A stretch of DNA of 64,000 bases from an uncultured Gammaproteobacteria bacterium. GTDB lineage: Bacteria > Pseudomonadota > Gammaproteobacteria > Steroidobacterales > UBA11654. Shown here in pieces: positions 2,199 through 7,280 of the stretch. The DNA lies in contig CACDKD010000003.1 of assembly GCA_902553145.1 (NCBI GenBank), positions 66,168 to 130,167 on the forward strand. Reading direction: 5' to 3'. The notes below the pieces were generated by a model. The model was not told where the DNA came from. It searched no databases and was given only the letters and a program-made list of their open reading frames with translations. Positions within the stretch are counted from its first letter, which is position 1. Every line of letters starts with the position of its first letter. The position numbers were made by a program, and so were the translations under genes.

Positions 2199-2849
2199 TT
2201 AAATCCGTTTAATAAATTTTCTGTAAAACTTTTCTATAAAAGTTGGTGAGTAGTAATCCTTGTCTTTTTCTGAGATTTTATCATAAGACCTCTTGTACTT
2301 ATGTTTAACCCAAGCATTCAAATCTGTTTTCTTTAAGAAATTGAAAATAATTTTTTTAAAAAGCCCGCTCCTATTTTCTTTGATTAAAGCGGTTCCAAAA
2401 TCAATCAGATATGGATTTAAGTCTCCACCAACTAAAAGATTATCCTTTCTTTTTAGATCCCCGTGAGCGACGCCCTTATCGTGCATAGATTTTATTAGCT
2501 CTAGGAGCGAGCTAAAGAATTGATCATTCCCATCGAGTTCAAATTGTTTGCTTCTGTAAGATTCTCCATCTATATATTCAAGGACTAAAGATCCATCTTT
2601 TGTTAGACCATAACACTTTGGTATGCCATCCAAATTTTCGAGTATTTCATAGATTTTAAATTCGTGTCTGATGCTCCATCTGTTGATTGCTTTAGACCAC
2701 CATTGATCCTGATTGGCTGATTTAATCAGATAAGCTTTTTCATCAGTTTCAATTTTGAAGAGTCTGCCTTGGTTGCCTTCAAATAAGGGGATGGAAGCTG
2801 ATGTACCAAGCTTTTCAGATATTTTTTTTAATAGGTCCTCGCGCTCCAC
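2199..2849 (-). CDS. Small RIO/Kdo-kinase-like (WaaP-type) protein kinase family protein
   Basis: Kinase-like HGDLKRKDNLLV catalytic loop and LIDFGTALI DFG motif. Confidence 0.75.
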   Translation of the reverse strand: MEREDLLKKISEKLGTSASIPLFEGNQGRLFKIETDEKAYLIKSANQDQWWSKAINRWSIRHEFKIYEILENLDGIPKCYGLTKDGSLVLEYIDGESYRSKQFELDGNDQFFSSLLELIKSMHDKGVAHGDLKRKDNLLVGGDLNPYLIDFGTALIKENRSGLFKKIIFNFLKKTDLNAWVKHKYKRSYDKISEKDKDYYSPTFIEKFYRKFIKRI

Positions 2850-2858
2850 TTTCTTAGT

Positions 2859-3476
2859 CTATCTTTGCACAACAATAAAAAGCCAGATCAAAACATAGAC
2901 AACAATCACCGGTTCGTAGTTTGTCATCAGACTTTTACTCAAAGACCAGCTTCTTAAATCTAATTTGGAAAAAATATTGCCATTCATGGTGCTTTTAAGA
3001 TCCATTTTAGGCATTAGTGCTGGCGTGATAGAAGCCCACTCTTCCCAAGCATCTGGAAAAAGTGATTTTAATTTTCTGTCTTCATATTCAATCGCAGTGG
3101 GATAATAAAACCAGAAGAAAACAAATGCACTTATAAAAGACCAAAGGAAACCATTAATCAGACATAAGCCTATTAAAATCATTATATTTCCAGTGTAGAG
3201 AGGGTGCCTCATAAAAGCATAAGGCCCTGTTGTGGAAAGTTCCTTATTTTTTAAGACAAATCCTGATGCAAACATTCGGGTAGATAGACCCAGAAGAATG
3301 AGGCCTATAGCAATATAAGATGCGTAAGGAAAAATTGAATCTGGAGATGTTTCAAAGCAAAAAATACTGACCAGGATGATCCCTATGCTTTGTCTAGAAA
3401 ATTCGTGGTATCGTAATTCTCTAATGAGGTGTTTAATTCCTGTTAGCTTTGGTAAAGCATCTGTTCGGTGTGACAT
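2859..3476 (-). CDS. Isoprenylcysteine carboxyl methyltransferase-like / PEMT-type membrane methyltransferase
   Basis: Multi-TM protein with GPYAFMRHPLYTGNIMILIGLCL and YEDRKLKSLFPDAWEEW motifs. Confidence 0.75.
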   Translation of the reverse strand: MSHRTDALPKLTGIKHLIRELRYHEFSRQSIGIILVSIFCFETSPDSIFPYASYIAIGLILLGLSTRMFASGFVLKNKELSTTGPYAFMRHPLYTGNIMILIGLCLINGFLWSFISAFVFFWFYYPTAIEYEDRKLKSLFPDAWEEWASITPALMPKMDLKSTMNGNIFSKLDLRSWSLSKSLMTNYEPVIVVYVLIWLFIVVQR

Positions 3477-3480
3477 AAGC

Positions 3481-4353
3481 CTATTGCCTTTTGCTATTTA
3501 CTTCCTCGATAAATGCCTTGTCAATGGTTGTGATGCCTTGACTTTTTGCTTCTTTAACAATGCCTTTCAACGCAGTTTTTACGAAGACTTTAGGTATTCC
3601 AGTTAATTGTTTGCAAGCATTTTCTGTGAAAGTAATTTCTTCATCAAGTCTATTTGCAATGTACATTACCGCATCATGTTTTGCCCCTTTATTCTCAGGA
3701 GTTGGTAGCCAAAATGCCTTTTTATGTTTTGCAAACCAGAATTGGTTTGCATTTCTAAAGCCAAAACTGATTGGCATATTGGGTATTTCCATGTCATCTC
3801 CTTTATCTAAATTATTCCTCCATCTTTCTCTGAGATGGACATGATTAATTTTTAAAAGCAAATATTCTGTAAATTCTGTTCCTGCATAATGAAAATCTTC
3901 TGGGTTATCATTGAGCTCACATTCAAAAACTTGAAAAGCTTCTTTGATAACTTTTGGTCTTTCGGGATCACTGACAAATGATTCTGTGGGAGTATCTTCC
4001 AATTCGAAAGTGCAGTCCTCCATTTTTTCTTCAGGTGCTTGACCTGGATACCCAAGATCAACAATATTTGGGATATGTTTCTTGTCGTATTCGACAAAAT
4101 TAAGAGCACATTTTTTATTTCTTAGTAAGTTTTTTGATGTATTTGAGCCACGTCGAGATATAACAATCCATTCTCTTCGCTCAATGACACCAAATGGGAA
4201 TGACAACTGATAAGGACCAATACTGGTTATACCGTCTTCGCTTACAGAGGTGATAAGAGCAAAAGAACTTAAAAAATATGAACTGGATTGATACCAGTTA
4301 TTATGCATTGGGCTTTCAACCCATTTCTCTTTTTTCTTGCCCCAAAATTTCAT
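3481..4353 (-). CDS. Flavin reductase-like / FMN-binding split-barrel domain protein
   Basis: SSSYFLSSFALITSVSEDGITSIGPYQLSFPFG and WIVISRRGSNTSKNLLRNKKCALNF resemble the flavin reductase-like fold. Confidence 0.6.
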   Translation of the reverse strand: MKFWGKKKEKWVESPMHNNWYQSSSYFLSSFALITSVSEDGITSIGPYQLSFPFGVIERREWIVISRRGSNTSKNLLRNKKCALNFVEYDKKHIPNIVDLGYPGQAPEEKMEDCTFELEDTPTESFVSDPERPKVIKEAFQVFECELNDNPEDFHYAGTEFTEYLLLKINHVHLRERWRNNLDKGDDMEIPNMPISFGFRNANQFWFAKHKKAFWLPTPENKGAKHDAVMYIANRLDEEITFTENACKQLTGIPKVFVKTALKGIVKEAKSQGITTIDKAFIEEVNSKRQ

Positions 4354-4423
4354 GTGAAAATTCTAACCGTTTTATCTTTAAAGTAATAATGCTAATTTAT
4401 ATTTATAATAAAAAAACTATTAA

Positions 4424-5227
4424 ATGAAGGTGGGTTTTCGATTAAAAATATTTTTCTTATGCTTTCTTAGCACAGCAACACTTGCATCACCAACAAATGA
4501 TGAGCTTGATAATGCCGACTATCTGAGTGGTAAAAATGCATTCCAGCAGCGATGCAGTGCTTGCCATACTTTGGCTGCAGACAGCGCAAATATTGTCGGT
4601 CCAAATCTTTGGCAGATATTTGGCAAAGGCGTGGGTGAAGATACTAGCTTTAATTACTCACCCTCAATGGCTTCGTCTGATTTAATTTGGGACAAGGAAT
4701 TAATTTATAAATTTCTCCAAGGACCTCAAAAGCTTTTTCCGGCTAGCACAATGGTGATCCCTGAACCTGTTCCTAAGGAATATCTGATCGATATGATTGC
4801 TTTTATGATGATAGAAACGGATGCTGCAAATAAGCCTAAGATAGAAAGAACATTTATCGCTGAAATCATTGATAAAAGTCTCCCTATTTCAGAGCGGTTC
4901 CCTAGTTTTTGGAATCATTTAATGACCAACACCACTCACTATCGTTTGGTTCACAGTGACAATCAGATTGAATTTGACGCATATTTCAATACTGATGGAT
5001 CAGTTTCTACAAACCTTAATGGAGTTACTGGGTTTTGGCATATCACAGAAAAAGACATGTTTTGCTACGCCATCCATCGTTTGCCTTTTTCAACATCAGA
5101 GTTTGTGGAATGTTTCCCCATAGCAGCTATGGCGATACCTCGATTTGCAAAAGAACTTTGGCGATCTAAACCAAAAGAAGATCTGATGCTATACGGCGGC
5201 ATCTTACCCGGAAGACCAATAGACTAA
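4424..5227 (+). CDS. Exported cytochrome c family protein with an extra C-terminal domain
   Basis: N-terminal signal peptide; heme c motif CSACH followed by GPNLWQIFGKGVG; distal Met candidates; ~120 aa C-terminal extension. Confidence 0.85.
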   Translation: MKVGFRLKIFFLCFLSTATLASPTNDELDNADYLSGKNAFQQRCSACHTLAADSANIVGPNLWQIFGKGVGEDTSFNYSPSMASSDLIWDKELIYKFLQGPQKLFPASTMVIPEPVPKEYLIDMIAFMMIETDAANKPKIERTFIAEIIDKSLPISERFPSFWNHLMTNTTHYRLVHSDNQIEFDAYFNTDGSVSTNLNGVTGFWHITEKDMFCYAIHRLPFSTSEFVECFPIAAMAIPRFAKELWRSKPKEDLMLYGGILPGRPID

Positions 5228-5243
5228 AACAGGCTATACTTTA

Positions 5244-6209
5244 ATGATGGTAGATTTCAAAGAACTCAGTGATTCTTTAGATGGGAAGGTGAGGGGTAAC
5301 CCCGTTGCAATCAGCTTATTCAAAGACGAAATACCACAACTCTATGAACAAAAGAAGGTGGTTCCTTGTTCTATTGTAAGGCATGCAATGGATAAAGGGG
5401 AGATAGTCTCCTTCGATAAACATCATCACGACTGCACCACAGGTGTTTATACAGCTGGCGTTCATGAGGGAACTGACGAGATTAGGAGCGGCCAATACCT
5501 CGCACAAAACATTCCTGCCTATACGGATGTGGGAGCTGAGAAAATTAAAACTGGAGAGTATGTTTTACCACAAAAAACTGTTGTTGGGATTGGTGCTGCT
5601 CCACTTTCAGAGGTCCCTGATGGAATATTCGTAGATTGGATAGTCGTTGTTTGCACACCCCATTGGGCAAACTTTATTGGAGGCGCAAGGACAGTGCTAG
5701 ATGGGACCCCTCCTAGAGGAGCTGCAGGCTCTTCTTTTTGCAGCGATCTTTTTGCAACTCCTTGGCATGATGGCAATGTCGTTATTACACCTGGTGATTT
5801 GGGTGGCAGGATGAATAATCGACTTAAACCTGAGGAAATGTTTGTGGTTGTCCCCAATGAATACTTGGAGAGTTTGTTGAATATTATGACTTCAACTCCT
5901 GATGCAAGAGCCGTATTGGAGGCGACAAAGCCAGAGGAATCGGATTATTGGAAAAAAAGAGATCGTGCAAAACGAGCCAAAGAAAATATAGACCAACGGA
6001 TAGAAGAAGATTCTTTTGATTCAAAAGTCAGCATGAGCTGGAGTGAAGGAGCGAAAGCTATGATTGCAAAGGCTCCCTCAGGCATTATTGAAATGGCAAT
6101 CAATAATGTTGAGGATTTTGCTAGAGATAATGGAATTGATGCGATTAATGAAGATGTTGTTATTGACCAGATGAATAGCGTAGGGATGGACCCCAACATG
6201 CTTTCATAA
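5244..6209 (+). CDS. DUF169-like protein fused to a C-terminal PCP_red-like domain
   Basis: DUF169-like region (PVAISLFKDEIPQL...CSIVRHAMDKGEIVSFDKHHHDCTTGVYTAG) plus C-terminal MSWSEGAKAMIAKAPSGIIEMAINNVEDFARDNGIDAINEDVVIDQMNS resembling the PCP_red domain of light-independent protochlorophyllide reductase. Confidence 0.65.
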   Translation: MMVDFKELSDSLDGKVRGNPVAISLFKDEIPQLYEQKKVVPCSIVRHAMDKGEIVSFDKHHHDCTTGVYTAGVHEGTDEIRSGQYLAQNIPAYTDVGAEKIKTGEYVLPQKTVVGIGAAPLSEVPDGIFVDWIVVVCTPHWANFIGGARTVLDGTPPRGAAGSSFCSDLFATPWHDGNVVITPGDLGGRMNNRLKPEEMFVVVPNEYLESLLNIMTSTPDARAVLEATKPEESDYWKKRDRAKRAKENIDQRIEEDSFDSKVSMSWSEGAKAMIAKAPSGIIEMAINNVEDFARDNGIDAINEDVVIDQMNSVGMDPNMLS

Positions 6210-6214
6210 AAATC

Positions 6215-6841
6215 TTAGAAGTTATTTAAGATTGTAAAAAAGTCACTCTCTAATTCTCCGACGGTATTTGCTGGACTCATCGTTGCAAATAGCGAGCCAT
6301 CTTTATCAAAGACAAAGATTGATGCGGTGTGATTAAAATCATAACCTTCCTCTTTATTGATCCTTTGATAGAAGACACTCAGACTTGAGGTGAAAGATTG
6401 TATATTTTCATATGTTCCTGTAACACCAAGCATGGTCCCGTCAAAATAACCGATATATTCATCCAGTCTCTCAGCAGAATCTCGATCTGGATCGAGCGTC
6501 ACGAGCACAGTATTAAAGTTAGCTGATGGAAGATCTTCTTTGATTCCATTTTTGATTTCAGCCAGTTTATATATAGTCGTTGGGCAAACATCAGGACAGT
6601 TTGTATAACCAAAGAAAAGAACCGTCCAACCTCCTTCAAGGCTTTTTTTATTGAAGGCCTCATTGTTTTGATCGATCAGTTCAAAATTATCTATTTCCAT
6701 TGGCCTTACAAGGATTTTGCCTGTGATCAAAGATGGTTTCTTTTCTAATAGTGATGGCAATGATTGAAAATAAGTAAAGAGCCCGGTGATACTAAAGAGA
6801 ATAAGTAGTATAAAAATGACGTTTCTTTTACTCATAACCAT
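6215..6841 (-). CDS. SCO1/SenC family copper chaperone
   Basis: FFGYTNCPDVCPTTIYKLAEI copper-binding CxxxC, later DFNHTASIFVFDKDG histidine. Confidence 0.93.
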   Translation of the reverse strand: MVMSKRNVIFILLILFSITGLFTYFQSLPSLLEKKPSLITGKILVRPMEIDNFELIDQNNEAFNKKSLEGGWTVLFFGYTNCPDVCPTTIYKLAEIKNGIKEDLPSANFNTVLVTLDPDRDSAERLDEYIGYFDGTMLGVTGTYENIQSFTSSLSVFYQRINKEEGYDFNHTASIFVFDKDGSLFATMSPANTVGELESDFFTILNNF

Positions 6842-7280
6842 CCCTTAAAACCGTTGCATCGCTTCTAAGAATCTTAATTCTATCTTCAGCTTCATAGTAG
6901 ATGATCATCTCAACCAAATTTCCTTCTTTGATTTCTTTTATAGGGCTCATCAACATTAAATGATAGCCGCCTGGGTCTAATTTAACTTCAGAGTTCTCAG
7001 GAATTTTTAGACTATCCATTTTCCTCATTGTGGATATCCCATCTTCAATGAATGAAGAATGTATTTCGATTTGATCAAAAGCATTTGATTTCATCTTTTT
7101 TATCGTGATTTCATTGGAGGAGAGGTTTCTGAATTTCAAATAACCCGAGAATATTTTTGAATTTGGAGGCGCTGACCTAATCCATGCATCATTGACTTCA
7201 AGTTCTGCAAATGCCTCTTGCCCAATAGAGATTAAAAAGAAGGCGAGCAGAATAAGAGGCTTTATACTCTTGGACCGCAA
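6828..7280 (-). CDS. PCuAC family periplasmic copper chaperone
   Basis: Signal peptide; VNDAWIRSAPPNSKIFSGYLKFRN and GYHLMLMSP motif. Confidence 0.9.
   Translation of the reverse strand: MRSKSIKPLILLAFFLISIGQEAFAELEVNDAWIRSAPPNSKIFSGYLKFRNLSSNEITIKKMKSNAFDQIEIHSSFIEDGISTMRKMDSLKIPENSEVKLDPGGYHLMLMSPIKEIKEGNLVEMIIYYEAEDRIKILRSDATVLRDGYE

Follow-up and report, generated by a model that had tools for sequence, protein, structure and literature searches.

PCP_red (PF08369) is a domain named after chlorophyll synthesis, and in BchB/ChlB it follows a nitrogenase-like N-terminal domain with the cluster and substrate site. DUF169 (PF02596; COG2043) carries the label 'Uncharacterised ArCR'. Our search of the literature found no description of a role for PCP_red, and both DUF169 and PCP_red receive passing mentions. 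A fusion of PCP_red with a universal stress protein (USP) in archaea has been mentioned as an unusual automatic annotation (PMC12159084). Like the protein described here, USP-PCP_red fusions carry the domain on a protein with no known photosynthesis association, and they differ from it in the partner domain and in often having several PCP_red copies. The protein in question is encoded at 5244..6209 on the forward strand of a 64,000-nucleotide stretch of DNA from an uncultured gammaproteobacterium (the window in what follows) and joins DUF169 to PCP_red.

The 321-aa product begins at an ATG and is predicted to be cytosolic, with neither a signal peptide nor an N-terminal hydrophobic stretch of the export type. 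Its DUF169 domain (5286..5879, residues 15-212) scores 85.4 bits in Pfam against a curated cut-off of 27 (6e-24) and covers model positions 7-207 of 209. A charged helical linker with lower conservation (5880..6038, residues 213-265) leads to PCP_red (6039..6161), which Pfam places at residues 266-306 and whose fold reaches about residue 313. In this protein PCP_red scores below its curated Pfam cut-off (26.7 versus 32.5 bits, 6e-6), and NCBIfam matches the tail to the end of BchB models. PF08369 is matched by all 16 family members scanned (E ≤ 0.001, best 6.9e-10), and a profile of these 16 orthologues finds the BchB C-terminal structure 2KRU at 4e-4, with weaker matches to 2XDQ, 2L09 and 2YNM, which are BchB-type or stand-alone PCP_red structures. 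2KRU is also the best PDB match of the C-terminal domain in the AlphaFold2 model of the fusion protein (mean pLDDT 82.9), the predicted tail superposing on it with an rmsd of 0.9 Å over 51 columns (Foldseek probability 1.00, E 6e-3); the tail also gives weaker structural hits to portions of RuvB-type AAA+ proteins. The preliminary description, made from the sequence alone, had likened the two ends of the protein to DUF169 and PCP_red, and both assignments are borne out by these profile and structure comparisons.

The fusion is real and conserved, and both of its parts are known families. Codon composition is native (GC3 of 0.357 against 0.345 ± 0.027) and dN lies far below dS wherever dS can be estimated, several dS values being saturated, so that the gene looks to be under purifying selection; the two observations together argue for a real, maintained gene. 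Of five pairs compared, four show a higher dN in the PCP_red tail than in the DUF169 part (0.20-0.27 versus 0.02-0.10), the order being reversed in the fifth. Among 296 genomes sampled from the order, 16 carry full-length fusions, and 21 fusion loci were found in the GTDB contig set via conserved peptides. The carriers are mainly gammaproteobacterial metagenome-assembled genomes (MAGs), together with Spongiibacteraceae, Thalassomonas, Halioglobus and one Thermodesulfobacteriota MAG. A mobile or viral origin was rejected given the native composition and the lack of any fusion in plasmid records or viral contigs. An Rfam scan of the first 20 kb of the window gave no match. In one MAG (L043 and L060, G087:C5), the PCP_red tail of the DUF169 gene and several adjoining genes contain frameshifts, more suggestive of assembly error than of decay.

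The tail shares with PCP_red of BchB/ChlB, besides the fold, a Trp, Ala, Pro, Glu, Ala pattern. Across 124 PCP_red domains a single Trp and a single Pro never vary, strong conservation extends to two Ala, one Glu and one Gly, and no Cys or His is conserved. The tail of the fusion protein, in which Trp266 and Glu290 are conserved residues, itself has zero Cys and zero His, so that a metallocofactor could rest only on the DUF169 part. The difference from BchB/ChlB lies at the N-terminus, where DUF169 stands in place of the nitrogenase-like domain, for which no match was found in the fusion protein. None of the three PCP_red matches in the organism's own assembly (85% complete) is BchB or BchZ, in keeping with the absence of photosynthesis genes remarked on earlier. 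The idea of a photosynthetic relic was ruled out because BchB was not found in this 85%-complete assembly.

The DUF169 part had no confident PDB match in a structure search with the predicted model. With PF02596 proteins at large it shares a full-length match, Cys42, Cys166 and GDxGGR (GDLGGR here), and an alignment shows both cysteines, the Gly-Asp and the Arg to be kept even in distant DUF169 proteins. The other two of its four cysteines are Cys64, which closes the HHHDC segment (residues 60-64) and is kept in all aligned sequences except the most distant one, and Cys137, which is typical of the fusion group. What distinguishes the fusion protein from DUF169 alone is the additional charged linker and PCP_red tail, before which DUF169 proteins of two other genomes in the order (G250 and G001) end. 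An accessory or regulatory protein that is not an enzyme, such as a thiol sensor or an assembly chaperone, might be expected to show conserved cysteines and a domain that matches no solved fold, and PCP_red does occur on USPs, which are not classical enzymes. However, the DUF169 part is compact and strongly conserved around the Cys and GGR motifs, as an active site would be, and the partners of PCP_red are mostly enzymes, which makes such a role unlikely in our assessment. We infer that the DUF169 front part most likely carries the activity, around Cys42, Cys166 and GDxGGR.

The preliminary description knew PCP_red otherwise from BchB/ChlB, a view that proved too narrow. A search with a profile of such tails found the domain on BchB and BchZ-sized proteins and also at the ends of flavin reductases, VanA-type Rieske oxygenases, NirJ/AhbD-like radical SAM proteins and USPs. 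Some of the Rieske oxygenase-PCP_red proteins continue into a short-chain dehydrogenase/reductase (SDR), and the radical SAM and USP proteins have one to several PCP_red copies. In several gammaproteobacteria (L104-L115, L119, L127-L131), USP-PCP_red and NirJ/AhbD-like radical SAM-PCP_red genes adjoin, frequently with repeats. The Thermodesulfobacteriota carrier has seven PCP_red genes; among their products an MFS transporter carries the domain at its C-terminus, and NIR_SIR/4Fe-4S reductases carry PCP_red, or a stretch resembling it, N-terminally. The transporter and reductase genes of this single genome are at L199:1483-3033, L202:736-1644 and L203:109-1044. Within the order, 15 of the 16 carriers encode a second tail of the PCP_red type. 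The UBA5047, Thalassomonas and Halioglobus carriers yielded no PCP_red protein besides the fusion; a degenerate type such as that described below might escape the search. These occurrences, as far as sequence can tell, newly point to PCP_red as an appendage in general use among redox enzymes. Because it is common to unlike enzymes and a transporter and offers no candidate ligands, its most fitting interpretation is an interaction module, a small helical docking or assembly appendage and probably not a catalytic or cofactor site.

Several of the tagged enzymes (BchB, BchZ-sized, NirJ/AhbD-like and NIR_SIR proteins) handle tetrapyrroles, which docking does not predict. This suggests another reading, in which PCP_red is tetrapyrrole-related and the fusion protein handles a haem-like or chlorophyll-breakdown compound; the presence of the domain on NirJ2/AhbD-like radical SAM proteins and NIR_SIR reductases as well as on BchB and BchZ-sized proteins speaks for it, as do the VanA-type Rieske oxygenases and SDRs that are tagged or adjacent. 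Yet flavin reductases, USPs and an MFS transporter carry PCP_red just as well, the domain lacks conserved Cys or His, and near the DUF169 genes no tetrapyrrole gene was recognised. The downstream SDR, examined as a candidate LPOR, falls far short of that model (77.6 versus a cut-off of 331). We regard a tetrapyrrole substrate as rather improbable and retain docking as the proposed function of the tail.

A candidate docking partner is encoded divergently from the fusion gene. The protein at 3481..4353 (reverse strand) is flavin-reductase-like, has a degenerate C-terminal PCP_red (about residues 240-285), and is present beside the fusion in 12 of 12 family genomes. Its likeness to split-barrel flavin proteins in Pfam is weak and the PCP_red score at its C-terminus is 13.4 bits; its Thermodesulfobacteriota homologue (L201, 38% identical) matches PF08369 at 3e-4 and Flavin_Reduct at 3e-3, and a profile-profile comparison of the C-terminus with PCP_red tails gives an E of 9e-6 and a probability of 83%. 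The model of the protein is poor overall (pLDDT 48), its usable C-terminal part matching 2KRU at 1.4 Å. The third PCP_red match of the genome, located elsewhere (L002), is a clear PF01613 flavin reductase with PCP_red above the cut-off; neither it nor the divergent protein had figured in the preliminary description as a PCP_red protein. Compared with such flavin reductase-PCP_red proteins (PF01613 and PF08369), the fusion has the same tail on a different catalytic domain. The conserved pairing of DUF169-PCP_red with a second PCP_red flavoprotein is new here.

The surrounding locus has a common layout in the home family. One strand carries genes for a homocysteine methyltransferase-like protein, a small protein, a small protein-kinase-like protein (2199..2849, reverse strand), a PEMT/ICMT-type membrane methyltransferase (2859..3476, reverse strand) and, in the same run, the flavin-reductase-like protein; the divergent side carries an optional cytochrome c gene, the DUF169 gene and an optional SDR gene, beyond which lie SCO1, PCu(A)C and an oxidoreductase. 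The region between the divergent genes (4354..4423), presumably a promoter region, is kept both in relatives that have the cytochrome and in those that lack it, with a shorter version in three relatives, which makes the divergent pair the stable unit.

The preliminary description had drawn attention to the cytochrome c gene next to the fusion gene. This cytochrome (4424..5227, forward strand) belongs to class I, has an uncharacterised C-terminal domain and begins with a hydrophobic stretch resembling an export signal, and the fusion gene starts 16 nt downstream on the same strand. The copper genes noted nearby are confirmed by Pfam as SCO1 (6215-6841, reverse strand) and PCu(A)C (6828-7280, reverse strand), and they lie downstream in the family loci with enough sequence. 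The closeness of the cytochrome in half of the family and the recurrence of the copper genes could be taken to mean that the fusion protein partners the cytochrome, or copper delivery, in redox or metal chemistry. The survey of neighbourhoods largely refutes this: the cytochrome gene is present at the locus in six of 12 family genomes and absent from the other six, in none of which was a full-length homologue found anywhere in the genome, and it lies near the fusion in 0 of 9 more distant carriers. Moreover, the cytochrome is predicted to be exported and the fusion protein is not, and the copper genes run convergently on the opposite strand. The cytochrome link is incidental, partnership with it was rejected, and we hold a role in cytochrome or copper chemistry to be very improbable. 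The C-terminal domain of the cytochrome (residues about 145-266) also occurs as separate ORFs of ~150 aa in four related genomes, with ~30% identity.

Genes of coenzyme F420 metabolism recur in the vicinity. In the organism's own genome cofD, cofE and npdG (C3:60289-62705; L034:290-2706) lie ~3.5-6 kb before the start of the window and ~9-11 kb upstream of the fusion gene, and this proximity recurs in the genus. Across the order cofD is present in 83 of 296 genomes, including 16 of 16 carriers in the order sample versus 67 of 280 other genomes (p 5e-10); excluding the home family, the counts are 5 of 5 versus 67 of 280 (p 9e-4), both p values ignoring shared ancestry. Together with luciferase-like monooxygenase (LLM) neighbours in other genomes that score best with F420-dependent Mer models, below the cut-off, this would fit an F420-dependent or F420-handling enzyme acting within F420 metabolism. 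Against it, many members of the order have cofD and no DUF169-PCP_red, and real cofD is absent from the Thalassomonas and Thermodesulfobacteriota carriers. F420 as an obligate cofactor was rejected on account of these two distant carriers, which make F420 at most a frequent companion, and a place for the fusion protein within F420 metabolism seems quite unlikely to us.

The neighbours of PCP_red genes in other genomes bear on the setting in which the fusion protein acts. Luciferase-like monooxygenases adjoin DUF169-PCP_red (L045), flavin reductase-PCP_red (L166, L168, L172) and Rieske-PCP_red (L169), the one in L045 being 51% identical to that in L169 and 36-39% identical to those beside flavin reductase-PCP_red. 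The f15 genomes counted have 13-25 luciferase-like genes each, and adjacency in three of 11 independent loci has a chance probability of ~2e-4 to 6e-4, with the gene frequency assumed and the loci counted after inspection. DUF1838 genes lie near the fusion in L067 and near several flavin reductase-PCP_red or Rieske-PCP_red loci, the gene beside L067 being 49% identical to one near flavin reductase-PCP_red in L160. An aldehyde dehydrogenase gene adjoins L069, and others lie near flavin reductase-PCP_red. Since the neighbours differ between lineages, they show no single pathway; the shared ones point to oxidative catabolism of organic compounds and not to one defined pathway. In three distant genera, a hydrophobic, apparently membrane-bound protein without a Pfam match (L067:3478-4293, L068:7077-7976, L069:5446-6255; 44-49% identical) is encoded near DUF169-PCP_red.

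Taken together, we propose, with a probability of roughly 40%, that DUF169-PCP_red and its tagged flavoprotein neighbour belong to a cytosolic flavin-dependent, perhaps F420-linked, redox system in which PCP_red serves for docking. The DUF169 protein would work with the PCP_red-tagged, divergent flavin-reductase-like protein, and the system would act on organic substrates and be of the type to which, in relatives, luciferase-type monooxygenases, VanA-type Rieske oxygenases, DUF1838 proteins, SDRs and aldehyde dehydrogenases belong. Of the redox or metallocofactor role first thought plausible, the general redox setting stands, whereas the link to cytochrome c and a metallocofactor held by PCP_red do not.

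A broader and more doubtful reading sees in PCP_red a general docking tag by which unrelated redox enzymes, and once a transporter, would be brought together in shared cytosolic assemblies, with DUF169 as a new enzyme class inside them. If so, chlorophyll synthesis would be one special case of PCP_red docking. Three PCP_red proteins in a small marine genome in which BchB was not detected, and the several redox and stress proteins that carry the domain elsewhere, make the function of PCP_red testable outside photosynthesis, and DUF169, a family without a fold match, gains a concrete candidate partner in the divergently encoded flavin-reductase-like protein.
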